From Clostridia bacterium (GTDB lineage Bacteria > Bacillota > Clostridia > Oscillospirales > Acutalibacteraceae), in NCBI GenBank assembly GCA_017430535.1, contig JAFRMR010000013.1:124001-188000 (forward strand): a stretch of 64,000 nucleotides of DNA, in the 5' to 3' direction. Within the stretch, counting starts at the first letter, position 1. Every line of letters starts with the position of its first letter. The notes below the pieces were generated by a model. It was given only the letters and a program-made list of their open reading frames with translations. It was not told the origin of the DNA and ran no database searches. The position numbers were made by a program, and so were the translations under genes. Shown here in pieces: positions 43,392-54,868 of the stretch.

Positions 43392-45029
43392 ATGGCAGGC
43401 AAAATACCGGGCACCGGCAACGGTCCCCTCAAAATTCAGTTCATTACGGATGTTCATTATTACGCAAGGGAAAACGGCACAGAAGGCCCGGCTTATGAAA
43501 AAGAAGAGGCCAAGAGCCAGCAGGTAATAAAGGACAGCGACCTGGTTATTCACAAGGCTTTTGATATGCTGTGCGAGGATACCTCCACAGATATTGTTGT
43601 GCTGGCCGGCGATACCACACGGAACGGCGAATATACATCCCACAAGGGTATTATTGATGAGCTTCACTCTTTGCAGGAGCGGGGCAAAAAAGTCTATGTC
43701 ATAACCGCCACCCATGATTACCGGGGCGACGGCAAGGGCAGGGGATTCAAAGGCGATGAGGTCATAGGAGTTCCCGCCGTGGCCGAAAGGCACGATTTAT
43801 GGGATATGTACTATGATTTCGGCCCCAAGGATGCCATTGCCGTGCATAAGGAATCCATGTGCTATGTATCTCAGCTTGCCCCGGGGTATCGGTTTTTTGC
43901 CCTGAATGATGATACCAACTATAAAGGCGACGGCGAGGGCGGCTCCGGCTACTCCGATTCCTGCCTGCAGTGGATTCTTGAGCAGCTTGAAGATGCAAAG
44001 GCCAATAACCAGTTTGTTATTGCCATGACTCACCATCCCATGGTTTCCCCTTCGCCGTTTTACTCAATAATCGGCAGCGGCGATATGCAGAGAAACCACG
44101 AAAAAACCCGTGAAATTTTTGCGGATGCCGGCCTCAGCTGTATGCTTACGGGCCACACCCATATCCATAATATCAGCTATGTTACCACCGCAAAGGGCAA
44201 CAGGTTTTATGATATTTCCTGCAGCGCCCTTATCGGTTGCCCGCCCAATTACAGAAATGTTACCATTGACCCGGATAATGAGCGCATAAAGGTTGATACC
44301 GTAACCGTAACCGATGTGCCCGGCGTTGAAACCGGCGGCAAATCCTTTGATAAATATATGGAGGATTTCTTCTTCGGTATGATAGGCCGTGTGGTATGGG
44401 CAATGGGTTATGATATAGATAAACTTGCGGAGATGACCCCCGCCTTCTCAATCCCCGGCGAAAAGGTCTATAAACTTAAACATATTATCCGCCCCTTCGG
44501 CAAGTTCCTCAACAAGCTCACCTTCAAAAAGGTATGGCGCCTTTGCAAAAAGGAGAGCGGCCTTAAAAAAGCCGATATAGCGGATATTGCAGATAATAAA
44601 GTGGTTGATTTCATTATCGGCCTTGTAAAGGACCTTTACTGCGGCGATGCTCCCTATACTCCTGATACAAGGGAATACAAGCTGACCTGCGGGCTTCTGA
44701 ATATAATTGACAGCTTCCTTAACACAATTCACCTGCCCATAGGCAAGTTCCTTAAAGGGGCAACGAGTGTACGCTCCCTTGTGGAGCCCCTTCTGTGGAA
44801 GGACGGCTACTGCGATGCCGAAGCCACCCTTCCCCTTTACCCCCTGTTTGACGAAAACAACCCCGCACCCGCCGAAATGTTTGAAACCAAGAAAATCCCC
44901 GATACCGTGAAGGCAAGTAAAAAAGGTCCCCTTATTCTTCTGCTTATCATCCTCGGTGTTCTGCTCCTGCTCGGCATACTTGCCGCAATAATTGCTTTGA
45001 TTGTGAAACTGATAATTTTCCTTGTGTAA
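43392..45029 (+). CDS. Membrane-anchored metallophosphoesterase
   Basis: 545 aa. Calcineurin-like core with ITDVHYYAR, VLAGDTTRNGE, THHPMV and LTGHTHIHN; the usual GNHD reads ATHDY, so that metal ligand set is slightly divergent. A ~200-aa helical region follows and the protein ends in one long hydrophobic helix (GPLILLLIILGVLLLLGILAAI...). No N-terminal signal is visible, so the enzyme is probably a tail-anchored protein facing the cytosol. Its layout is like the secreted enzyme at 51983, which shares the helical region style. Confidence 0.78.
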   Translation: MAGKIPGTGNGPLKIQFITDVHYYARENGTEGPAYEKEEAKSQQVIKDSDLVIHKAFDMLCEDTSTDIVVLAGDTTRNGEYTSHKGIIDELHSLQERGKKVYVITATHDYRGDGKGRGFKGDEVIGVPAVAERHDLWDMYYDFGPKDAIAVHKESMCYVSQLAPGYRFFALNDDTNYKGDGEGGSGYSDSCLQWILEQLEDAKANNQFVIAMTHHPMVSPSPFYSIIGSGDMQRNHEKTREIFADAGLSCMLTGHTHIHNISYVTTAKGNRFYDISCSALIGCPPNYRNVTIDPDNERIKVDTVTVTDVPGVETGGKSFDKYMEDFFFGMIGRVVWAMGYDIDKLAEMTPAFSIPGEKVYKLKHIIRPFGKFLNKLTFKKVWRLCKKESGLKKADIADIADNKVVDFIIGLVKDLYCGDAPYTPDTREYKLTCGLLNIIDSFLNTIHLPIGKFLKGATSVRSLVEPLLWKDGYCDAEATLPLYPLFDENNPAPAEMFETKKIPDTVKASKKGPLILLLIILGVLLLLGILAAIIALIVKLIIFLV

Positions 45030-45043
45030 AATAAAACTATAAA

Positions 45044-45080
45044 AATCCACCCCTGCGGTCTGTTTCCGCAGGGGTGGATT
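45044..45080. terminator. Bidirectional terminator
   Basis: AATCCACCCCTGCGG / CCGCAGGGGTGGATT stem between convergent genes. Confidence 0.85.
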
Positions 45081-45091
45081 CCGATTATATA

Positions 45092-46042
45092 TTACTGTTC
45101 AAGCTCAAACGAAGCGTTGTAATAATAGCTGTCCCAGTCAAATTCCGCTTTCCAGTCCGAAAGCAGGGGGAGCAGGTTCGGCTTGTCGTTTTCATCGGCG
45201 CCTGTATAGTAAATGCCGAAGCAGGTGGTTGCTGTTGCCTGTGAATCAGCTTCGCCCTCTTCTCCCTCATATTGTTTTAATTGTGAGATATTAAAACTGT
45301 AGGCTGTGGATTCTCCGTCTTTTTCGGCAACGAGCTGACCCTTGCCGTCAAAGGAAAGATTATAGCTGCTTTCTCCGTATGTAAGAACGCCGTTTTCAAT
45401 GGTAACCTCTCCTTTTTCACAGGACCATTTACCGTTGAGGACATTGATATCAACAGGATTTGCGGATAATGCCGCATCAATTTTACCGTTTTCATCGGCT
45501 CTGTAAAAAACAATAAGGGCATTTTGTGAAGAGCTGAAATCCGGGTTTACATTTTCAACGGGAACCATATAAAGGGCATCGTTTTCAATGCTGTAGGCGG
45601 TAAAAGTAAGGGCGGTGGTTCCTTCCTCCACATCGCCTATCATCTCTGATTCTTCGCAGATTATTTTGCGGCCGTTTGCTTCAATGCAGGTGTATTTTAC
45701 TTCGGATGAGCCCCTACTCTCAATTTCGGCGGTTGATGTGCCGTCTTCATTGTATGTATATATGCTGCTTCCGTCGGCAGTGATCCATCTACCGGTTAAA
45801 TCCGGGTCTGTTTTACCATCTGTAATATCGGCAAAAGCATTGTATTTGCTTGCAATGCCGAGCTCAACATCGGTAGCAGCAAGGGAATTCAGTTTTTCAA
45901 TAAGGTTTACTCCATTGCCGGCCGGTTCTTCGGCGGCGCCGGTTGTGCTTTGCTCAGTTTCGGGCTTATCGGCTCCGCAGCCGAAAAATACCGCTGCCAT
46001 AAAAACGCAGAGAAGTATGCATATAAGTTTTTTTGCTGACAT
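45092..46042 (-). CDS. Secreted lipoprotein of unknown function
   Basis: 316 aa. Signal sequence with lipobox VFFGC, so Cys22 is the likely lipid-modified residue, then a Thr/Glu/Gly-rich spacer. The rest has two lipocalin-like or beta-rich repeats with LTGRWITADGSSIYTYNEDGTSTAEIE and LNGKWSCEKGEVTIENGVLTYGESSYNLSFDGKGQLVAEKDG, each a 'GxW' start followed by short strands. I do not recognise a function. It has its own promoter and is monocistronic. Confidence 0.7.
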   Translation of the reverse strand: MSAKKLICILLCVFMAAVFFGCGADKPETEQSTTGAAEEPAGNGVNLIEKLNSLAATDVELGIASKYNAFADITDGKTDPDLTGRWITADGSSIYTYNEDGTSTAEIESRGSSEVKYTCIEANGRKIICEESEMIGDVEEGTTALTFTAYSIENDALYMVPVENVNPDFSSSQNALIVFYRADENGKIDAALSANPVDINVLNGKWSCEKGEVTIENGVLTYGESSYNLSFDGKGQLVAEKDGESTAYSFNISQLKQYEGEEGEADSQATATTCFGIYYTGADENDKPNLLPLLSDWKAEFDWDSYYYNASFELEQ

Positions 46043-46070
46043 TTTTATTTCCTCCCTGAATCGGTTTGTT

Positions 46071-46086
46071 GTGAAATTCGTTTCAC
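46071..46086 (-). promoter_or_regulatory. Small palindrome in the lipoprotein 5' leader
   Basis: GTGAAA-TTCG-TTTCAC just downstream of the -10 box; it could be an operator or a small RNA hairpin. Confidence 0.4.
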
Positions 46087-46092
46087 ATATTT

Positions 46093-46121
46093 ATTATACA
46101 TACACTCAGCAGCATAATCAA
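46093..46121 (-). promoter_or_regulatory. Promoter of the lipoprotein gene
   Basis: Minus strand TTGATT (46116-46121), 17 bp, TATAAT (46093-46098). The -35 end lies inside a repeat shared with 51904-51975. Confidence 0.6.
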
Positions 46122-46183
46122 GGAACAAAACAAAATCGAAGCTCTGTAAGCTACATATAAAAAAACACCCCGCAGGGTGCTTT
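46116..46183 (-). repeat. Duplicated terminator-promoter cassette, copy 1
   Basis: About 70 bp that matches 51904-51975 with few changes: hairpin CACCC-CGCA-GGGTG, a U-run, a small AGCT-TACAG-AGCT hairpin, and the TTGATT of the next promoter. It separates the CODH-beta-like gene from the lipoprotein gene. Confidence 0.75.
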
Positions 46184-46185
46184 TT
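46160..46185 (-). terminator. Terminator of the eight-gene dehydratase/CooC operon
   Basis: Minus strand GCACCC-TGCG-GGGTG followed by seven U. Confidence 0.85.
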
Positions 46186-46888
46186 ACTTATCTTTTTCGC
46201 ACAGCGCCTCAACCTCATCGCAGACCGTTTTAAGGCTGCAGGTTTGGCAGTCCATGCGTATATCTTTCATTATATGGTCAAGGGCTGTGGTTATGCTCTC
46301 CGATTTTTTCATTATTGCTTCAAGCTTATCATAAGGAAAACCGGGGTCTGTAACAAAAAGAAGTTTCACCGCCTTAACCTGCGGATTCTTTTTGTATTCA
46401 TCAATAAAAAATCTGCCAATGTGCCCGAAGCTCAGGCCCTTTTTTACAGCATCTTTTCCAACCCTTGCCGCCTCGCGGTGAGTGAATGCGGAAATGCGCA
46501 TCATATATCCCTCCGGGTGGATATGATACCGGGCATATTCTATTTTTCTGATAGTTTGGTACAGTTTTTCTCCTGTGCCCATTTCATCTTCGTTAACATT
46601 CAGCAGTGCAATTCTTGCAAAAGGGGAATCACCTTTTATTTCTCCAAGGTCCTTGCCTATGAGCAGTATTTCATCCCGGGTAACAAAATCTTCCCTGTCC
46701 GTAAGCGCAATGCTGCTTAAGGCCGGCAGAGTACCGCCGCCCAGCTCATAAGCGGTATCACTCTGAAAAATTATCTGATTTTTGTCATTGCTTTCCCAGT
46801 GTGAATATTTTTGTGCTTCAAAGCTTTTTACGGAGTATTGAGAAAGTATTTCTCCAACACCTTCAAAGCATTCATCATAGAGTTTCAT
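46184..46888 (-). CDS. CO dehydrogenase beta-subunit-like protein (ACS-associated family)
   Basis: 234 aa. It resembles a family annotated near CO dehydrogenase genes: QIIFQSDTAYELGG, DEILLIGKDLGEIKGDSPFARIALLNV and GYMMRISAFTHREAARVGKDAVKKGLSFGHIGRFFIDEYKKN. The C-terminus has a Cys cluster DCQTCSLKTVCDEVEALC that could bind Fe-S or metal. Not all residues fit known acetyl-CoA synthase, and no catalytic subunit is in the window. It starts 3 bp after cooC and is last in the operon. Confidence 0.6.
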   Translation of the reverse strand: MKLYDECFEGVGEILSQYSVKSFEAQKYSHWESNDKNQIIFQSDTAYELGGGTLPALSSIALTDREDFVTRDEILLIGKDLGEIKGDSPFARIALLNVNEDEMGTGEKLYQTIRKIEYARYHIHPEGYMMRISAFTHREAARVGKDAVKKGLSFGHIGRFFIDEYKKNPQVKAVKLLFVTDPGFPYDKLEAIMKKSESITTALDHIMKDIRMDCQTCSLKTVCDEVEALCEKDK

Positions 46889-46891
46889 TAT

Positions 46892-47677
46892 TTATACATC
46901 CCCGATAAGGTTCAGTTTTTTCAGCGCATGTTTTGCGCCCTGTATCACGGCGGAGCTTCCGGGCAGGCTGTAAATGCTGTCGCCTGCAATATCGTTCATA
47001 GCAAGCCCGGGGTCATCGGGTATGAGGGCAAGTATTTCAAGGCCGGCCGTATCAAGCCTGTCTGCAACGGAAATATCCGGCAGGCGGTTTATAATCAGCC
47101 CCGCCTTGTCAAACATAACCATTTCCCCGGCAACGGTCAGTATTGTGCGTGTTACCTGCAGGCCTTTTTTGCTGGCGTCCGAAACAAGAATAAGGTGGGT
47201 AACCTTTTCCATAACCCTGCGGTTTACCTGCTCAATCCCCGCCTCGCCGTCAATAACAACATAGTCAAAGTTGCCGGCAATCATTGAGATTATCTCTTTA
47301 AGATAGGCGTTCACTTTGCAGTAGCAGCCGGCCCCTTCCGGGCGGCCTATGGCAAGGAAGGAAACATTGCCCGTTTCCTTAAGAGCATCAAACATCTGGT
47401 ATTTTGCTTCGCCCAGCAGCTCAACAGCGGCGCTTGTGTTGCCGCTTTCCGCCGTCTTAACAAAGGATTTTCTTATATCATCAACGGTAAAATCAACATC
47501 AACCCCAAGGGCGGTTGCAAGGCCTACTGCCGGGTCTGCATCAATGGCAAGTATTTTTTTGCCCGGGTAAGCTTCCGAAAGCAGGCGCACTGCAGCGGCA
47601 GAGAGGGATGTTTTGCCCACTCCGCCTTTTCCGGTGAATGCAAGAACAGTTGTTTTTTTATCCGCCGTATTCATCAT
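46892..47677 (-). CDS. cooC: CooC-like Ni-insertion ATPase
   Basis: Dimeric P-loop ATPase of the MinD/SIMIBI class; CooC inserts nickel into the CO dehydrogenase C-cluster. 261 aa: deviant Walker A FTGKGGVGKTSLSA, AIDADPAVGLA, the dimer-interface metal motif GRPEGAGCYCKVN (Cys118 and Cys120) and VVIDGEAGIEQVNRR. ATGA overlaps the cooT stop. No CO dehydrogenase gene lies nearby, so it must serve another Ni or Fe-S enzyme or one encoded elsewhere. Confidence 0.87.
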   Translation of the reverse strand: MMNTADKKTTVLAFTGKGGVGKTSLSAAAVRLLSEAYPGKKILAIDADPAVGLATALGVDVDFTVDDIRKSFVKTAESGNTSAAVELLGEAKYQMFDALKETGNVSFLAIGRPEGAGCYCKVNAYLKEIISMIAGNFDYVVIDGEAGIEQVNRRVMEKVTHLILVSDASKKGLQVTRTILTVAGEMVMFDKAGLIINRLPDISVADRLDTAGLEILALIPDDPGLAMNDIAGDSIYSLPGSSAVIQGAKHALKKLNLIGDV

Positions 47678-47862
47678 TCTGTTTTTAATATCACATAACC
47701 GTCTGTAAGGCTTGCCTTGAGTAGGCTGCCGTCAAAGGAAATTCTGCGGCCCATAAGGTCAATCAGCGTTACCTGATTTTCGGAGCACTCAATGAGCATC
47801 ACATTATTCATAAGCACGGTTTCGTCGGAAATCTCGTTTTTGTATGCGGTAGATAGGCACAT
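47674..47862 (-). CDS. cooT: CooT-family nickel-binding protein
   Basis: 62 aa. The N-terminal MCLSTAY with Cys2 is the defining CooT feature, and the rest (DETVLMNNVMLIECSENQVTLIDLMGRRISFDGSLLKASLTDGYVILK) has the small beta fold. Known CooT binds one Ni(II) per dimer through Cys2. It starts 2 bp after the small membrane ORF and overlaps cooC by 4 bp, so the nickel proteins are made together. Confidence 0.85.
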   Translation of the reverse strand: MCLSTAYKNEISDETVLMNNVMLIECSENQVTLIDLMGRRISFDGSLLKASLTDGYVILKTE

Positions 47863-47864
47863 AA

Positions 47865-48020
47865 TTACAGCTTCCTGTCTTTTTTCAGATTATCGTAATA
47901 GGGCTGAACTTTGTCATAAATCCACCTTACAAGCTTCATATCGCTGTTTGTATAGTAGATTATGAATGTAAGGGCAAAAAGTGCCGCCAGGACTATCAGT
48001 ATAATAAGCAATACTTTCAT
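47865..48020 (-). CDS. Small single-span membrane protein (51 aa)
   Basis: Not found by length filters. ATG 48020 shares its first base with the activase stop (TAATG) and the stop lies 2 bp before cooT. Residues 2-22 form one hydrophobic helix (KVLLIILIVLAALFALTFIIYY), then a charged tail with Trp, Tyr and Lys (MKLVRWIYDKVQPYYDNLKKD). The precise packing between coding genes supports a real gene. I know no family; it may tether the complex to the membrane. Confidence 0.7.
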   Translation of the reverse strand: MKVLLIILIVLAALFALTFIIYYTNSDMKLVRWIYDKVQPYYDNLKKDRKL

Positions 48021-48817
48021 TATTCAGCCGCCAGTCCTTTCTGCCGCGCAAACTCAGCTGCGCCCAGGGCGCCCATAAGCTGCGGGTCTGTTTTGAGCTC
48101 AACAACCTTTATTTTAAGCACTTTTTCAATGGCCTGTTTAAGTCCGTCGTTTTTTGCGCAGCCCCCGGTCAGTGTTATGCTGTCGGTAGCGCCCGCTTTT
48201 TTTGCCATAACAAAGCAGCGTTTTGCAACGGCAAGCTGTATGCCCGCGGCAATTTCATCCATAGGTTTTCCTTCGCCTACAAGGGATATAACCTCGGATT
48301 CCGCAAATACCGTGCACTGCGCAGTGATGGGTATGGTATTCTTTGCCTGCAGCGAGAGCTTTGAAAAATCTGAAAGGGACATTTCAAAAGCATTTGCCAT
48401 TGCCTCATAGAATCTGCCGGTACCTGCAGCGCATTTGTCGTTCATTGCAAAGTTCTTTACAGTGCCGTCCGTATCAATGGCAATGCCCTTTACATCCTGA
48501 CCGCCTATATCGATTATAGCCCTTACGCTCGGGTCCGTAACATGAACGCCCATAGCGTGGCAGGATATTTCGCTGATATTTTCATCGGCAAAGGGAACTT
48601 TATTTCTGCCGTAGCCGGTACCCACAAGGTAGGATAAATCCCTGGCAGAGGCAAGCCCGTCAACCTGGGCAACCGCATCGTTCAGCGCTATTTCCGCAGA
48701 CTGAACGGGGTTGATTTTGCTCCTGTTTGTTACATTGGCAACCATTTTGCCGTTTTCATCAAGTATTACGCATTTTGTGTAGGTTGAGCCCACATCGCAA
48801 CCGCCGAAATATTTCAT
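48020..48817 (-). CDS. 2-Hydroxyacyl-CoA dehydratase activase (HgdC/BadF family)
   Basis: ATP-driven electron-transfer activator. 265 aa of the ASKHA fold: GGCDVGSTYTKCVILDENG, the helix IDIGGQDVKGIAID, and two [4Fe-4S] ligands per homodimer, Cys129 (NDKCAAGTGRF) and Cys168 (AQCTVFAESEV), as in HgdC (one cluster shared between subunits). C-terminal GGCAKNDGLKQA. It lies 23 bp after the larger dehydratase-like gene. It would reduce that complex by ATP hydrolysis. Confidence 0.93.
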   Translation of the reverse strand: MKYFGGCDVGSTYTKCVILDENGKMVANVTNRSKINPVQSAEIALNDAVAQVDGLASARDLSYLVGTGYGRNKVPFADENISEISCHAMGVHVTDPSVRAIIDIGGQDVKGIAIDTDGTVKNFAMNDKCAAGTGRFYEAMANAFEMSLSDFSKLSLQAKNTIPITAQCTVFAESEVISLVGEGKPMDEIAAGIQLAVAKRCFVMAKKAGATDSITLTGGCAKNDGLKQAIEKVLKIKVVELKTDPQLMGALGAAEFARQKGLAAE

Positions 48818-48840
48818 ATCTGTATTCTCCTTCGTATTTA

Positions 48841-50400
48841 TTACCAGGCCGCAGTGTCGTCAAAATCCACCAGTGTGGGGTCAACGGGCTCTTCGCGCAG
48901 CACCGTGGTCATATATTTGTTTATCTGGTCACGCATATCCCGCCTTGAAATGGTGCGGGGGTCCATAAGATCCTGAGGAACCCAGATAAAGCTTACATTG
49001 TGCTCCCTTGCCTGTTCCTCAAAAATTCCGTTAAGCCCGTCCATTCCTTTACAGGAAATCTGGTCATACATAATAACCATATCTGCGTTGAATTCTTCCA
49101 CAATTCTCCACAGCTCATCCACAACATTGGCGTAGCCGCCTTTGGTATGCTTGCGCATGGTTGTTCTCTGAAGGGTTTTGGCAAATGTTGCAAGAGCCTT
49201 CTCTTTATCTTCCGTATCGTACATATAGTAGGAAATCATTGTTTCCATATCCATAATAACATTTACGCCCCAGCAGTTTTCAAGCCAGTTTGCAAGGCTT
49301 GTGTAGTAGTTTGCCGGGCAGGACCATACTATGGCTCTGTGGCGCATTTCCTTGGAACACTTTGTCTTTTTGGCATAGGCGTCAAGCATCATCTTATTGA
49401 CCTTTTTATCAACCTTTAAGAAGCGCTTGTCTATGCCGCCGGAAATATGAAAATAGAAAAGTCTGTAAAGCCAGAAAGTGGCGCCTGTCATCTGTGGATA
49501 ATCGGTTTTGTTTATCTCCCATTTCTGTATTTCATACTCGGTTTGCTTGTTGTAGGTTTTCATAGCTGAGAAGAAGGCATCCCAGTCCCACTTTTCCCCG
49601 GTCTGCTTTTCAACAAACTCAATGGCGTATTTCACCTCATCCACGGCGTATTCCTGAACATCCTCGCCGTTATAGCGCAGGGGTACATTAATGCTCTGTG
49701 TAGGAATATTGAAGCGCCTGTCAATATATGATGAATTCATAATCGAGCCGTCGCAGGGCATATTGCAGGTAAGGGAGCAGACACCCACAAGGGGATAGTC
49801 ATCATTTATTGCAACACCGGCCTCGGCAGAGGGCAGGGGGCATACATCCGCAGGCACGCCGTAGCTTTCGGTAATATCAAGGTAAACCGGCGTAATATTC
49901 TGGTCCACCATGGATGTAAGGAAAATGGGGATTGTGGTCACATGGTTATCCTTGAGGTTGGGAAAACCCGCAATAAATTCCGATGAAAAAATCTCATCCA
50001 CATTTACGGTTTTATCCGCCCACTTCGGATGCTTGTGAAAATGCCTGTCGTTGCTCAGCAGAAAGCGAATCAAATCCGTTGTGGGCTTAACCAGCATATT
50101 CATATGAAGGTGAGTGATTCTCAGCTGAGGGCCTCTCAGGCCTTCGGTATGGCGGTCAATCCACGCAGGGGCTGTGAGGTAACTCATCATCCAGCGGTAA
50201 TTGAATAAACCTTTTACTATGGAAACAGGCGCTTTAAGCGTCATAAGGATTATATCTTTCCAGGTTACAAGCCAGCGGTAGTAATCATACATTGTATCAG
50301 AAAGTCCGCGCCACTCCCTGTGCTTGAGCAGGCCCGTTTTATCCTTATGAAGGTCGCCCAGATTATGGGGCTCATTTCGCCAGAAATTCTTTATACTCAT
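48841..50400 (-). CDS. 2-Hydroxyacyl-CoA dehydratase/benzoyl-CoA reductase-like large subunit
   Basis: 519 aa, cysteine-rich, with the family core GVCSLTCNMPCDGSIMNSSYIDRRF, WSCPANYYTSLANWLENCWGVNV and MIMYDQISCKGMDGLNGIFEEQA, which provide [4Fe-4S] ligands in relatives such as HgdA/HgdB, BcrC/BcrB or the double-cubane protein. It is about 120-140 aa longer than classic subunits because of an N-terminal extension. It overlaps the partner gene by 4 bp (ATGA). The substrate is unknown. Confidence 0.85.
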   Translation of the reverse strand: MSIKNFWRNEPHNLGDLHKDKTGLLKHREWRGLSDTMYDYYRWLVTWKDIILMTLKAPVSIVKGLFNYRWMMSYLTAPAWIDRHTEGLRGPQLRITHLHMNMLVKPTTDLIRFLLSNDRHFHKHPKWADKTVNVDEIFSSEFIAGFPNLKDNHVTTIPIFLTSMVDQNITPVYLDITESYGVPADVCPLPSAEAGVAINDDYPLVGVCSLTCNMPCDGSIMNSSYIDRRFNIPTQSINVPLRYNGEDVQEYAVDEVKYAIEFVEKQTGEKWDWDAFFSAMKTYNKQTEYEIQKWEINKTDYPQMTGATFWLYRLFYFHISGGIDKRFLKVDKKVNKMMLDAYAKKTKCSKEMRHRAIVWSCPANYYTSLANWLENCWGVNVIMDMETMISYYMYDTEDKEKALATFAKTLQRTTMRKHTKGGYANVVDELWRIVEEFNADMVIMYDQISCKGMDGLNGIFEEQAREHNVSFIWVPQDLMDPRTISRRDMRDQINKYMTTVLREEPVDPTLVDFDDTAAW

Positions 50401-51596
50401 TTCGCCTGCTCCTTTGCTTTCTGGATTTTCTTTATTTCAAGGCTTTCAACAAAGGCTTGCACCCTGGTTCTCAGCTGGCCTGATGCGCTTGCCGTATACT
50501 GGCGGTCAACGCAGACTGAGGGTATGCCGAAATCGTTTGTAACAACATGTGAGGCCAAGGCTCTTTCATAGCCCCAGTATTCGCAGAATTTAAGCTGCTG
50601 GTAAAGAACGCCGTCGGCGTGATATTCCTCAACAAGCTGTTTTACATATTCCCGTCTGCCTTCAACCTTATCCTGGGACATATACCGCGGGCACTGGCTT
50701 GTTCTCATATAGTGAAGAATAATCTGCTCAAGCACATCGCCCTCATCGGTGAGCTTTATCTCTTCCCTGCCGGGCAGAGCACCGAAGCAGAAACGGTCAG
50801 CAACCACCAGTGCGCCGGATTCTTCAATCAGCTTTGTGAAATCCGGGTCATCCATTTCCGAGCCCACCACAACAATTTTAGCCCTGTAGTTTTTCTTTGT
50901 ATCGGGAACTCTTGTTTTCAGTTCTTCCGCCGTTTCCCTGAGCTTATCAATAATAAGATACTTGGGGCAGCAGTAGGATATAAGGTTAAGCACATGATAT
51001 TCGTAGCCGGTGATGCGTGGGTTTTCTTCTTTTCTGTATTCGCCTATTTCCGTAATAAGGCGGCAGACTTCATTGTGCTCTTCAACCGCCTTGCGCAGGG
51101 CATCATCGCTTATATCCACGCCGTAAACCTCGTGAAGCTTATCAAGCACCTTTTCCTGCATCTGGCGTTTATAGTGCTTCACGGTGTGGGGAGCGATTTT
51201 GAACGGAACATCTGAAATGGTTACAAAGAATTTTTCATTATCTACAAGGTGCAGAATTTCAAAATGCTCATAGGCCCTGTTCATCTGCGAGCAGGTTTCG
51301 GAGCCGAAAAGGGCGTCAAGGTGCTGGTAGCCACCTTCAATGCCTCTTTCAACCAGTGCTTTTGAAAAACCGCAGAGGAATGAGCTCATATAATATGTAG
51401 AAATATCAAGGGAACCGGTTCTTGGGGCGCGGAGCCTTGTTGAAAAGCAGCCGGGCAGGTTCAGCAGAACCTCGGGAATATGGTAGCAGGTATAGGCAAG
51501 GCAGAGCTTGCCGTCTTTTTTTGCCTGCTGAACAAGCTCATTATTCGCCTCCTGCAGCAGGTTTTCAAACTCGTAAAGATACTTTAAATCTTTCAT
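50397..51596 (-). CDS. 2-Hydroxyacyl-CoA dehydratase-like small subunit
   Basis: 399 aa. N-terminal CLAYTCYHIPEVLLNLPGCFSTRLRAPRTGS (Cys32, Cys37, Cys50), FGSETCSQMNRAYE (Cys102) and the C-terminal RQYTASASGQLRTRVQAFVESL match the HgdB/HadC type fold. Several extra cysteines (CCPKYL, FCFGALPG, SQCPRY, FCEYWG) suggest an additional or double cluster. It starts just after the His-rich protein and overlaps the next gene, so both subunits are made in step. Confidence 0.85.
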   Translation of the reverse strand: MKDLKYLYEFENLLQEANNELVQQAKKDGKLCLAYTCYHIPEVLLNLPGCFSTRLRAPRTGSLDISTYYMSSFLCGFSKALVERGIEGGYQHLDALFGSETCSQMNRAYEHFEILHLVDNEKFFVTISDVPFKIAPHTVKHYKRQMQEKVLDKLHEVYGVDISDDALRKAVEEHNEVCRLITEIGEYRKEENPRITGYEYHVLNLISYCCPKYLIIDKLRETAEELKTRVPDTKKNYRAKIVVVGSEMDDPDFTKLIEESGALVVADRFCFGALPGREEIKLTDEGDVLEQIILHYMRTSQCPRYMSQDKVEGRREYVKQLVEEYHADGVLYQQLKFCEYWGYERALASHVVTNDFGIPSVCVDRQYTASASGQLRTRVQAFVESLEIKKIQKAKEQAK

Positions 51597-51608
51597 TTTA
51601 TCTGTCCT

Positions 51609-51842
51609 TTATTTAAGTGATTCAAGGGCCTGCCTGAGCAGTTCGTTGCCCTGATTGTATTTTTCAAGGGCGGAAAGGGTCTTTTCCCCGGCCTGTTCAT
51701 TCCCAGTTTTTGTAAGCTGCCGGGCAATCTGAGCAATTTCTTCCGAGTGGGAAATGTTATGGCTCAGCATATACTCAAGCAGCGCCTTCATCTCTTCCGG
51801 GTTTTCGCTTACAACCTTATGATGATGGTGATGTTCCTGCAT
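51609..51842 (-). CDS. Small His-rich protein at operon start
   Basis: 77 aa. It starts MQEHHHHHK (five consecutive His), a potential Ni or Zn site, then a two-helix segment (NPEEMKALLEYMLSHNISHSEEIAQIARQLTKTGNEQAGEKTLSALEKYNQGNELLRQAL). It lies 12 bp before the first dehydratase-like gene and is the first gene of the operon. Its real role is unknown; a metal-store or chaperone role is inferred from the His run and from the CooC/CooT genes downstream. Confidence 0.75.
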   Translation of the reverse strand: MQEHHHHHKVVSENPEEMKALLEYMLSHNISHSEEIAQIARQLTKTGNEQAGEKTLSALEKYNQGNELLRQALESLK

Positions 51843-51880
51843 CCTGCTACACTCCCTCTGAAAATATACTTAATAAAAAT

Positions 51881-51909
51881 ATTATATCTTAATTAAAACT
51901 CAAAATCAA
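51881..51909 (-). promoter_or_regulatory. Promoter of the eight-gene dehydratase/CooC operon
   Basis: Minus strand TTGATT (51904-51909), 17 bp, TATAAT (51881-51886). The -35 box is in a duplicated cassette also found at 46116. Confidence 0.65.
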
Positions 51910-51975
51910 GAAATAAAACAAAAACCGAAGCTCTGTAAGCTGCATATAAAAAAGCACCCCGCAGGGTGCTTTTAG
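51904..51975 (-). repeat. Duplicated terminator-promoter cassette, copy 2
   Basis: Matches 46116-46183: same hairpin with AAGCACCC / GGGTGCTT, AGCT mini-hairpin and TTGATT box. It separates the secreted phosphoesterase gene from the operon's first gene. Confidence 0.75.
51948..51973 (-). terminator. Terminator of the 51983-54868 operon
   Basis: AAGCACCC-CGC-AGGGTGCTT, followed on the minus strand by a U-run. Confidence 0.85.
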
Positions 51976-51982
51976 CGTTATC

Positions 51983-53659
51983 TTAAAACTCAAACCTGAA
52001 AACCGATTCAAACAGTTTTCTGAAAAATTCAATGATTCTTTCCCAGAATCCGCCAGTTTTTTCATTTGCCGCCACCGGAGCCTGCGAGGGCAGGTCTGCG
52101 TCTCTGTCCGGCAGATCAAAGTCCACGGCAAATTTATCAAGCAGAGGGTAAAGCACCTGCTCCGCAACCTTGTATGAATCCTCTTTGCCCAGGGCAACCG
52201 CATTGAAAAGTGGGCTGAGCTCATCTGTGTTTATCTGTGTGCCCAGCACCTGCAGCAGCAGGTTAAGACCGCTTCTGCCGGTTTTTGTCAGTATGTATTC
52301 AAGGCCCGTGTTCAGCCCTTTAACCAGTATTTCACCCTCCGGCGAGCTGCCGCTTGGCATATTCTCATCGCCGTAATAGTGCATGGCAACCATAGAGCTT
52401 GCAAGCTCAATCAGCGAGCCGTAGTCCGATGCCGGTATGGATACCCCTTTTGATTTTGCAAGCTTTTCTATGCTTACGCCGCTGCCGCTGTCATAAAGGG
52501 GCATTGTCAGGGCCTCGGTTATAGTGCTGAAAAGGTTGTCAACGGCAAAGGCCGGGGTATCGCTGCCGATTTTCAGCTTTTTCTTTATGAATTCCGGTGA
52601 GGTGTATTTAAGGATTTTCTTCTCAACCGAATATTTGAAAAGCCCGTACGCAAACTGCTCATAGTCACTCTCAAGCAGTTCCTTCTGGCTGTCGGTGTAG
52701 CCGTCAATCAGGGCATCCGTATTGCATTTTTCAATTTTTCTCATCCTTATTTCCGCGCCCTCGGAGCTAAGGTTTACCGCCCTGTATTCAAGGGGATAGG
52801 ATGACAGCGCAGTGGTCAGCACATCATAAACAACCGCGCCGTTTTTGCCGGTATAGCTTGCAATATCATTGCCGTGCTCGTGGCCCGTGAATACATACTG
52901 TATTCCCCAACCGGTGAATTTTTCCGCCACCTCTTCGCTGTCTCTGAGCATAAAATCCTTCATCAGCACTTTGCCCATATAAAGGTGCTCAAGCAGGGGA
53001 TGATGCATCATATAAATAATCTGCCTGCCGTCGGCTTTTGCTTTTTCCGTCTGGGTTTTTATCCATTCCAGCAGGGCAGATGTAAAACCGTCGCCGTCCT
53101 CACCGGGGTCGTTTGAGTCAACCGCAATAAGGCGGCAGTTCCCGGCCAGATCAGCCGTATAGGATGCAGTGGAGCTGTCGGCGGCAAGGGCCTGATTATA
53201 GCCGAGGTCCGCATAGTATTTTTTGAATTCAGCGGGTTTAGATGAGTAATAATCATGGTTGCCGGGCACCACATAAACCTGTATTCCCGTCTCTTTTTCA
53301 AAATCCGAAAGCAGGGATGCCACAAAGCTGTGCTGCTCTTCGTTTCCGTTTCTGGTAAGGTCCCCGGCAATCAGTATGAATTCAGCGCCTTCATCTGCGC
53401 TTCTTCTAAGGAATTCCTTTGTAAGTTCCGCCGCCTGATCATAGATATTGCCTGAGCCGGAGGCCTGAAAATACAGTTCGCTTTCCGGGTAGTTCACATC
53501 CAGCTCGGTTTTGGTGTTATCAATATGTATATCGGTTGCCATGGTGAATTTCACTCCGCTTTTTTCCGCCGAGGCGCTGAAAAGAGCGCAGGTGCCTGCC
53601 AGCATAACAGCCGCAAGCAGTGTGCTTATTATTCTTTTTGCAGCTTTCCTGTTTTTCAT
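51983..53659 (-). CDS. Secreted metallophosphoesterase
   Basis: 558 aa. A signal peptide (to ~Ala32), then a calcineurin-like core with MATDIHIDNTK, IAGDLTRNGNEEQH, VPGNHDYYS, MHHPLLEH and VFTGHEHGND. A helical C-terminal half follows, ending in the amphipathic helix GGFWERIIEFFRKLFESVF. It starts 12 bp after the choloylglycine-hydrolase-like gene, so both secreted enzymes are one operon. It may cleave host or wall phosphoesters; the substrate is unknown. Confidence 0.82.
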   Translation of the reverse strand: MKNRKAAKRIISTLLAAVMLAGTCALFSASAEKSGVKFTMATDIHIDNTKTELDVNYPESELYFQASGSGNIYDQAAELTKEFLRRSADEGAEFILIAGDLTRNGNEEQHSFVASLLSDFEKETGIQVYVVPGNHDYYSSKPAEFKKYYADLGYNQALAADSSTASYTADLAGNCRLIAVDSNDPGEDGDGFTSALLEWIKTQTEKAKADGRQIIYMMHHPLLEHLYMGKVLMKDFMLRDSEEVAEKFTGWGIQYVFTGHEHGNDIASYTGKNGAVVYDVLTTALSSYPLEYRAVNLSSEGAEIRMRKIEKCNTDALIDGYTDSQKELLESDYEQFAYGLFKYSVEKKILKYTSPEFIKKKLKIGSDTPAFAVDNLFSTITEALTMPLYDSGSGVSIEKLAKSKGVSIPASDYGSLIELASSMVAMHYYGDENMPSGSSPEGEILVKGLNTGLEYILTKTGRSGLNLLLQVLGTQINTDELSPLFNAVALGKEDSYKVAEQVLYPLLDKFAVDFDLPDRDADLPSQAPVAANEKTGGFWERIIEFFRKLFESVFRFEF

Positions 53660-53671
53660 TTTCTCTCTCCC

Positions 53672-54868
53672 TTAAAGATAGATTGTATATCCTTTTTTGT
53701 AGTTTTCTCGCAGGTAATAGGTTACGGCTTTTGCCCCCATATCAGATACGGCGGTCCACTCCGTGTTATAATCATTGAGTCCGCCCTGAGCGGCATCTGC
53801 CATAATATCCCTCAGCTGTGCGGTATCCGGCTTGCCGTTTTCCTCAAGGGCCTTCATTATATTTTCATACCGTTTCACGCTCTTTTGTGAGCCCACCCCG
53901 TATTTGCTGCCGGGGGTGACATAAAAATTGGTGAGCGCCGGGGTTTCGGTAACGTAAATTTTATTGTTTATATATTCCACCGCCGCCGAATATCCCGAAG
54001 GGTCGCAGATTGCAAAGTGTATAACATAGCCGAAGGATGCGTGCATATCGTAGCCCTTCAGCAGCTCCACCGCCTGCTTTGCGCTGCCTGCCCGGTCAAG
54101 AATCAATCGCACTGCGGTTGTGGTTGTAAGGTCCGGCTTTGAGGTCTGCTGATTTATTGATGCGCCTTTGTCAAAAACCATGTTTACCGAAACGCATACT
54201 CCTTTTTCGTTCATGCCGTCCAGCGGGGCGTAAAGGGCGCAGAAGCGCATCACATCATCCGAAAGCTCATATTCAGAGCTGGATGTAATAAAGTCCATGT
54301 TGACCGTTGAAACCGATTTATATCCCTTTGAGGGCCTGCACACAAGGGCAAGGCCGCTGCACTTTTTCCAGTCAAAATTCCTGCCGAAATATCCCGTGCC
54401 GCTTTTGCCGGGGGTGTAAAGGGTGCTGCAGCCTGCGCCTCTGAATTTAAAAAGAGGCCCCGCCTTTCCGCCTATAACCTGGCGGATAAGGAAGTTTGTC
54501 AGCTCCTCATCATCCGATACCCCTTTGCCGGATATAAAATCATCCAGCCCGTCATCCCCGGAAAACGCCACATAGGAAAAGCTTGCCGTAAGGTCTCTTA
54601 TGCTTTTATCCGGTGTGATTTTCACGGTGTTCAGGGGAGCGGCTTTGCGGGCGGTTTCCGTTTCTGAGGTTGTTTCCGCCTCAGAGGAGGTTTCCGTTTC
54701 CGTCTGCGCAGCTGTTGTTTCCGTTTCGGATACAGATGTTACCGCAGAGGTTTCGGTTTGCGCCGCGGTCTGCGTTTCTGTGCCGGTTATTATATTTTCA
54801 CCTTCGCCGCACCCTGCGCATATAATCAAGGCAACGGGCAGCAGCAGGCAGATAATCCGCTTTTTCAT
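53672..54868 (-). CDS. Lipoprotein choloylglycine-hydrolase family (linear amide C-N hydrolase)
   Basis: 398 aa. Signal sequence with lipobox ICAGC (Cys20), a long Thr/Glu-rich linker (residues 28-75), then an Ntn-type domain with GAGCSTLY (Cys147, likely nucleophile) and FGRNFDW (a family signature). Members split bile salts, penicillin V or N-acyl amides; the Cys147 lies internally, so either no autoprocessing to an N-terminal Cys occurs or it is proteolytically exposed. Surface location suggests hydrolysis of host or neighbour metabolites. The substrate is unknown. Confidence 0.8.
   Translation of the reverse strand: MKKRIICLLLPVALIICAGCGEGENIITGTETQTAAQTETSAVTSVSETETTAAQTETETSSEAETTSETETARKAAPLNTVKITPDKSIRDLTASFSYVAFSGDDGLDDFISGKGVSDDEELTNFLIRQVIGGKAGPLFKFRGAGCSTLYTPGKSGTGYFGRNFDWKKCSGLALVCRPSKGYKSVSTVNMDFITSSSEYELSDDVMRFCALYAPLDGMNEKGVCVSVNMVFDKGASINQQTSKPDLTTTTAVRLILDRAGSAKQAVELLKGYDMHASFGYVIHFAICDPSGYSAAVEYINNKIYVTETPALTNFYVTPGSKYGVGSQKSVKRYENIMKALEENGKPDTAQLRDIMADAAQGGLNDYNTEWTAVSDMGAKAVTYYLRENYKKGYTIYL

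Follow-up and report, generated by a model that had tools for sequence, protein, structure and literature searches.

Which enzyme receives the metal when nickel-maturation genes stand in an operon, and in a genome, without CO dehydrogenase (CODH)? This question is raised by eight genes in a 64,000-nucleotide stretch of a Clostridia bacterium (GCA_017430535.1, contig JAFRMR010000013.1, positions 124,001 to 188,000; hereafter the window). They encode two subunits, A and B, of the 2-hydroxyacyl-CoA dehydratase (HGD-D)/benzoyl-CoA reductase class, an activase, a single-helix membrane protein (TM), CooT, a CooC-type ATPase and a His-rich protein; the eighth product, p8, stands alone and is homologous to domain 2 of acetyl-CoA synthase (ACS). 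Our best reading, to which we give a probability of about 0.6, is that the operon combines a reductase of this class, driven by ATP and anchored in the membrane, with a nickel-insertion module of its own, and that the reductase is probably a nickel enzyme. A nickel-dependent HGD-D reductase is a strong genomic prediction, and its main rival is assembly of an iron-sulfur (Fe-S) cluster by the same genes. A more specific version is put forward tentatively, at slightly less than even odds: A-B may be the first nickel-containing HGD-D/benzoyl-CoA reductase, CooC and the ACS-derived domain building nickel into its cluster, and may carry out, at the membrane of anaerobes of the gut, the ATP-driven hydrogenation of a substrate that is hydrophobic and either unsaturated or aromatic.

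Reductase subunits and maturation proteins

We observed that A and B matched PF06050 with 322.7 bits (E 4.8e-96) and 145.5 bits (E 3.7e-42), respectively (cut-off 28.4). The activase scored 193.2 bits against PF01869 (cut-off 31.5) and 214.8 bits against TIGR00241 (cut-off 125.4). With two HGD-D subunits and a BadF/BadG-type activase over the Pfam cut-offs, the core belongs to the HGD-D/benzoyl-CoA reductase superfamily. Activase residues Cys129 and Cys168, which we take to be the cluster ligands, were present in 70 of 70 sequences. The core fell short of every characterised equivalog that we compared, namely DCCP (NF040772, cut-off 350; A 149.6 bits, B 47.1), class I benzoyl-CoA reductase (TIGR03190/TIGR03191; 101 vs 453.8 for BzdN and 22.6 vs 448.6) and (R)-2-hydroxyisocaproyl-CoA dehydratase (NF052455/NF052456; 24.1 vs 750 and 87 vs 700).

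All 93 distinct sequences of A kept its six cysteines, which aligned with those of BzdN (8s02_B, E 6.8e-28) and DCCP (7yyl_C, E 2e-21), the DCCP alignment being a few columns off at Cys302. A double cubane occurs in both BzdN and DCCP (PMC11971306, in excerpt). The alignment and the conservation support the prediction that A is a reductase subunit of the double-cubane type. Subunit B resembled the catalytic subunits BzdO and HadB, folded like BzdO and had three cysteines that align with catalytic-cluster cysteines. Families missing from the VIA lists for B and p8 are not thereby excluded. The substrates of the BzdO and HadB enzymes are aromatic or hydroxyacyl CoA thioesters. In the membrane protein, the FxxYxxNxDxK motif was conserved in an alignment of 7 sequences.

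The CooC-type ATPase had CooC (3kje, E 7.1e-13) as its best PDB sequence match. Its GKGGVGKT and CYC motifs were each present in 60 of 60 aligned sequences, and it thus combines a MinD-type P-loop with a CXC motif, presumably the metal motif of CooC; insertion of nickel into a client is its putative role. CooT scored 54.1 bits against PF10133 (cut-off 27) and starts with MCLS, which places a cysteine at position 2, so that both family and N-terminus fit a predicted CooT. This Cys2 was nearly invariant among 11 aligned sequences and takes part in nickel binding by the CooT of R. rubrum (PMC6006190, in excerpt). The same source describes nickel roles for CooC, CooT and CooJ. The 77-residue His-rich protein matched no Pfam or NCBIfam family over cut-off; its H28, N29 and H32 were invariant in 12 of 12 aligned sequences. 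It may play a CooJ-like role, to which its His-richness and its context point.

An earlier, sequence-only reading of this DNA had called the eighth protein, p8, CODH-beta-like. We found instead that p8 is a homologue of ACS domain 2, by both fold and Pfam score (PF03598, 27.9 bits vs 24), and that it lies far below the cut-offs for full-length ACS (NF040764, 27.1 vs 800; TIGR00316, 24 vs 355.95). It has no ACS domain 1 and almost none of domain 3. The remainder of domain 3 carries the nickel ligands of ACS. The C-terminal CxxCx5C cysteines of p8 were invariant (63/63) and aligned with ACS cysteines that we take to be ligands of the [4Fe-4S] part of the A-cluster. A piece of acetyl-CoA synthase thus leads a separate existence alongside another metalloenzyme. 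The remaining family calls of that reading (two HGD-D proteins, activase, CooC, CooT, His-run protein and small membrane protein) agree with the Pfam, NCBIfam and PDB matches, and all eight open reading frames of the operon that it proposed were recovered.

In the mechanism that we propose, the activase would hydrolyse ATP and drive low-potential electrons into the double-cubane cluster of A, which would hand them to the catalytic cluster of B, where an unsaturated or aromatic organic substrate would be reduced. The one-helix protein would tie A-B to the membrane. CooC would deliver nickel, aided by CooT and the His-rich protein where they are present, and p8, with its cut-down A-cluster-like cysteine motif, may serve as a docking site or scaffold where the metal site takes shape and from which it is then passed to the enzyme.

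Linkage, co-occurrence and copy number

A scan of contigs confirmed at least 581 relatives, of which the best 80 loci were kept; the counts lean to near relatives. The sources of these 80 included Clostridia of the rumen and gut, Lachnospiraceae, Mogibacterium and a Spirochaetae metagenome-assembled genome. Because it recurs across families and in the Spirochaetae genome, the arrangement goes beyond chance. Cassettes were counted in 109 groups, with the window, L013, L014 and the second lineage described below excluded; 56 groups truncated at a contig or locus end were removed, and 2 of the other 53 were duplicates, which left 51 distinct, fully flanked groups. We called a cassette core if p8 or CooC was present and solo if neither was, so only the other genes are informative between the two classes. 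CooT and His-rich genes were tallied on the operon strand only.

All 38 core groups had A, B, TM and p8; CooC and the activase were each present in 37, and CooT and the His-rich gene each in 9. A single core group (L059) was without CooC and the activase. The 13 solo groups all had A, B and TM, the activase was present in 3, and neither CooT nor the His-rich gene was found in any of them. Solo enzymes fell at several places in the B tree. The earlier reading had named a finding that would overturn it, cooC and cooT occurring only with CODH and their linkage to the dehydratase genes not being conserved; with p8 in 38 and CooC in 37 of the 51 groups, and the window's own genome devoid of CODH, this check did not overturn it. 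A TM relative was found in 51 of 51 groups and followed 53 of 53 A-B pairs in them, the extra pairs in L068 and L085 being recognised by eye (the profile missed a TM-type reading frame). We consider the 51-residue single-helix protein a probable membrane anchor or subunit.

CooT (PF10133) was present in 17 of 41 B-carrying genomes and, by coordinates, stood beside genes of the system in 12 of these 17. Of 20 unselected genomes that lacked B, 1 had CooT, as did the 3 ACS genomes chosen on purpose. At four further loci (L080, L081, L083 and L086), CooT and the His-rich gene lie convergently behind p8.

Within the order, 5 of 295 genomes carried B, and all five had p8, CooC and an activase in the same cassette. 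In the family of G298, 21 of 250 genomes carried B; the p8 profile matched the same 21 and three others, where the match lay in frames of 715-729 amino acids (aa), as expected of full ACS. At thresholds of 1e-30 and 1e-8, B and stand-alone p8 never occurred apart in these 250 genomes. Because the genomes are related, this co-occurrence is weaker than 21 independent events. In a phylum sample of 398 genomes, we observed B in the window's own genome only, and stand-alone p8 in that genome and in G719; the other 30 matches lay in frames of 712-784 aa, where full ACS is expected. With B and stand-alone p8 so rare in this sample, the system is patchy.

The 21 B genomes of the G298 family held 33 B matches including fragments, with 2 to 4 per genome in 8 genomes. 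The only departures from a single p8 in these 21 were a gene split in two (G510) and an end-truncated fragment (G346). G286 had four B and G071 three, each with one p8 by PF03598, which can miss p8; in a set of 23 genomes it missed p8 in 5 whose loci show it, and it is therefore an unreliable p8 counter. The TM gene comes along with extra A-B pairs; CooC and p8 do not. Because A-B-TM multiply while p8 stays nearly single, we infer that TM is a subunit and that CooC and p8 are shared maturation factors.

A second lineage, from another part of the phylum, also has p8 and CooC. In G719, A and B are preceded by genes for an acyl-CoA dehydrogenase and for a 594-aa protein that no Pfam family matched, and followed by two activases, p8 and CooC, all in a row; A has six cysteines, and B differs from that of the window (HGD-D, 466 aa, three cysteines, no Cys376). 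Stand-alone p8 was found in 6 of 71 genomes of this order, where two further p8-profile matches sit in 428- and 479-aa frames. In 6 of 6 second-lineage genomes p8 lay between activase and CooC with its cysteine motif kept, and HGD-D genes were visible in 4 of 6, the contig ending first in the other two. The p8-CooC pair thus belongs to HGD-D systems more widely, here in a BzdNOPQ-like arrangement. An extra conserved protein precedes the second-lineage A (L206:14187-15971, 594 aa; L233:3506-4909, 467 aa; L229:3665-5639, two reading frames); its L206 copy had no match in Pfam or NCBIfam. In G990, the p8-CooC pair of the second lineage is directly followed by another A-B-activase set, nearer to the window type (L229:11300-14706).

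Candidate clients and rival readings

The window's own genome (G000, assembly 96.88% complete) had no PF03063 and no TIGR01702 match, and hence no recognisable Ni-CODH; PF03598 matched p8 only, so there was no full ACS, and PF00374 (NiFe hydrogenase) was without match. The claim that CODH and ACS are missing, made earlier for the operon, therefore holds for the whole assembly, and we rejected CODH, ACS and hydrogenase as clients in this genome. Of 41 B genomes, 33 were without CODH over the TIGR01702 cut-off, and 8 had it. In a set of 23 genomes (22 distinct, one assembly appearing as both G145 and G301), 13 had no PF03063 match of any kind, 5 had a PF00374 match, and only G307 had full ACS. 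The 8 genomes with CODH and the 5 with PF00374 are what favours the idea that the nickel genes serve another nickel enzyme of the cell and are linked to A-B incidentally. Against it stand the own genome, the 33 genomes without CODH over cut-off and a linkage conserved in two lineages, and we regard it as the least credible of the readings considered. As a separate observation, G286, the genome with four A-B copies, has a PF03063 protein of ~594 aa that TIGR01702 did not recognise (C18:43613-45118).

The HGD-D class of the parts and the acyl-CoA dehydrogenase that flanks the G719 cassette would fit a conventional Fe-S enzyme, either an (R)-2-hydroxyacyl-CoA dehydratase or a benzoyl-CoA reductase, to which the other genes are attached as hitch-hikers. 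We consider this reading very improbable: the NCBIfam equivalog cut-offs were widely missed, co-occurrence with p8 in 21 of 21 genomes is not hitch-hiking, and there was no CoA-transferase among the eight operon proteins, the sole set in which we looked for one. Improbable, to a lesser degree, is a reversal of roles in which the nickel protein is p8 itself, bearing a minimal Ni/Fe-S centre like that of ACS, and A-B-activase uses ATP to supply it with electrons or to reactivate it. The same 21 of 21 co-occurrence, the three invariant cysteines aligned with those of ACS and the presence of CooC in the same cassette (37/38) are consistent with such a role. p8 is, however, nearly single while A-B-TM reach four per genome, the opposite of what a catalytic partner would show, and it stops short of the part of ACS domain 3 in which the nickel ligands lie.

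The main rival, still unlikely in our view, is that CooC and p8 build or mend an Fe-S cluster, such as the [8Fe-9S] cluster of A, with CooC as a P-loop Fe-S carrier and the p8 triad holding a [4Fe-4S] block. The superfamily of CooC includes Fe-S carriers and NifH, to which the operon CooC gave weak matches, and A is of the predicted double-cubane type. The p8 triad aligns with the cysteines that we take to be [4Fe-4S] ligands in ACS, and the part presumed to hold the nickel ligands is missing. CooT and the His-rich protein are optional, which also suits this rival; their recurrence in core and not in solo groups (9/38 vs 0/13) argues against it, CooT being a Cys2 nickel protein. We know of no CooC or p8 that accompanies the double-cubane enzymes DCCP and BzdN, and we count this against Fe-S assembly as well.

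Several observations weigh against a nickel-dependent reductase. We could identify no nickel site in A or B, and Cys376 of B, the candidate nickel ligand, is missing from the second-lineage B. The clusters of BzdNO and DCCP are reported as Fe-S only (PMC11971306, in excerpt), and the CooC of R. rubrum does not bind nickel (PMC6006190, in excerpt). CooT and the His-rich gene were on the operon strand in just 9 of 38 core cassettes, and CooT lay elsewhere in 5 of its 17 genomes (beside CODH in G338, beside ACS in G307, ~14 kb off in G545, and in G265 and G071); because of this, the case for nickel rests mostly on CooC. The G307 cassette has A, B, activase and TM without CooC or p8, and that genome had no stand-alone p8 by PF03598 (which can miss p8) and carries CODH and full ACS elsewhere; perhaps full ACS could substitute for p8 there (L077, L115). 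The L051 cassette is also without CooC and p8, as judged from the cassette alone.

The nickel-dependent HGD-D reductase nevertheless remains our best reading of these data. Three parts of the sequence-only interpretation survive, namely the joining of nickel-type maturation genes to an HGD-D reductase in a conserved linkage, the absence of CODH, here extended to this genome, and the double-cubane type predicted for A; the fate of a further part, its substrate, is given below. If the reading is true, nickel has a new client in a class in which only iron-sulfur clusters are known, and the operon offers a genetic handle on the maturation of ATP-driven, very low-potential reductases. A 2018 review counted nine characterised nickel enzymes and expected more (PMC6006190, in excerpt). 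The recurrence in gut and rumen Clostridia, some with several enzyme copies, suggests that the enzyme may perform an unassigned gut reduction.

Operon layout, neighbourhood and known systems

The eight genes run on the minus strand from 51842 to 46184 (Table 1). Their seven joints are, in gene order, a 12-bp gap, a 4-bp overlap, a 23-bp gap, a 1-bp overlap, a 2-bp gap, a 4-bp overlap and a 3-bp gap, so that overlaps occur at three of the seven and not at most of them, as had been stated. The promoter-like site is a consensus match only; the region held 15 such sites, and shuffled sequences 9.8 +/- 2.8. A search of window positions 45000-54500 for a regulatory RNA, such as a nickel/cobalt riboswitch, gave three weak sub-threshold RNA matches, none of that kind. 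An RNA-family scan of 8 loci returned two tRNAs and one Clostridiales-1 sRNA (RF01699) at gathering threshold; the sRNA lies closely upstream of CooC in a core operon, on the other strand (L080:5614-5777).

Table 1. Features of the operon region, in window coordinates
Feature	Position	Strand	Remarks
His-rich protein, 77 aa	51609..51842	-	first operon gene; EHHHHH run, conserved HNxxH core
Subunit A, HGD-D, 399 aa	50397..51596	-	double-cubane [8Fe-9S] type, predicted from cysteines 37, 75, 102, 270, 302, 338
Subunit B, HGD-D, 519 aa	48841..50400	-	catalytic type: Cys187, 216, 450; extra near-invariant Cys376; N-terminal extension
Activase, ATP-driven, ASKHA type, 265 aa	48020..48817	-	TIGR00241
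Single-helix membrane protein (TM), 51 aa	47865..48020	-	one hydrophobic stretch; FxxYxxNxDxK motif
CooT, 62 aa	47674..47862	-	PF10133; MCLS start
CooC-type ATPase, 261 aa	46892..47677	-	GKGGVGKT and CYC motifs
p8, stand-alone ACS domain-2 homologue, 234 aa	46184..46888	-	C-terminal C214-x2-C217-x5-C223
Promoter-like site TTGATT-17-TATAAT	51881..51909	-	~40 bases upstream of first gene

A survey of the flanks for the substrate gave hints only. One cluster of OYE-type flavoenzymes lay near the operon in 13 loci (two members Pfam-scanned; for example L017:12485-14551, L207:4479-6539 and L064:9672-12506). The L207 copy was closest to the long bilirubin reductase and BaiCD, yet under their cut-offs, and the L064 copy is preceded by an extra N-terminal region of ~220 aa. 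Large Nfn/GltD-like flavoproteins, forming one cluster, were present in 8 loci, and HypA accompanied them in three of these (one flavoprotein and one HypA were scanned). In Lachnospiraceae, a HypA-type chaperone and a 909-962 aa Nfn/GltD-like flavoprotein adjoin A-B cassettes (L211:3102-6268, L208:9808-12994, L078:9793-10260); by eye, the same neighbourhood was seen at L216:3610-7089, and it sometimes lies inside the operon. The flavoenzyme neighbours hint at reduction of a C=C bond, and the membrane protein hints at a hydrophobic or membrane-bound partner.

Other neighbours were noted in passing. Two calcineurin-like phosphoesterases (43392-45029 and 51983-53659) flank the operon region of the window, and an AAT/choloylglycine-hydrolase-like protein is encoded at 53672-54868. 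A further nickel enzyme, lactate racemase LarA, is encoded ~2 kb away from the operon in L081, L086 (14468-15781, the only copy Pfam-scanned) and L088. An HtpG (Hsp90)-type gene stands beside cassettes in L209 (2354-4258, the only copy scanned, over its NCBIfam cut-off), L095, L097 and L101.

Among the matches listed, we found no description of this gene system in the open-licence PMC literature. Plasmalogen synthase PlsA/PlsR, which we take to be HGD-D- and activase-like, invites comparison as an anaerobic reductase of membrane lipids. Compared by description only, it differs in that the excerpt of PMC9702350 mentions no nickel module. The operon of the putative isoprene reductase IsrA likewise joins a C=C reductase to nickel chaperones, HypA and HypB, without a NiFe hydrogenase; by its description, IsrA differs as an FAD/Fe-S oxidoreductase whose operon has other chaperones and no activase (PMC10134865, in excerpt). 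The Nfn/GltD-like flavoprotein and HypA near A-B cassettes match IsrA by description only; after this source we credited HypA to the IsrA-like neighbour and dropped it as additional nickel evidence for A-B (PMC10134865, in excerpt).

DCCP (6eno, 7yyl) shares its six cysteines with A and is homodimeric, whereas the operon encodes two different subunits (PMC11971306, in excerpt). This difference, and the likeness of B to the CoA-thioester enzymes BzdO and HadB, speak against the DCCP-like enzyme for a small substrate that had been proposed from the sequence. ACS (CdhC) differs from p8 in size and motif: p8 is only 234 aa long, is without domain 1 and almost without domain 3, and has CxxCx5C in place of CxxCx8C.

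Class I benzoyl-CoA reductase (BzdNO(PQ)/MbdON) likewise has two HGD-D subunits, one with the six-cysteine double-cubane set and one with a three-cysteine set, and an ATP-driven activase; the operon adds CooC, CooT, the His-rich protein, p8 and TM, its equivalog scores are far under the cut-offs, and the window has a single activase where the second lineage has two. The CODH nickel-insertion module CooC/CooT/CooJ is matched by a CooC with CYC motif and P-loop, a CooT with Cys2 and a His-rich protein, but in an operon and a genome without CODH, where the client appears to be the HGD-D enzyme.

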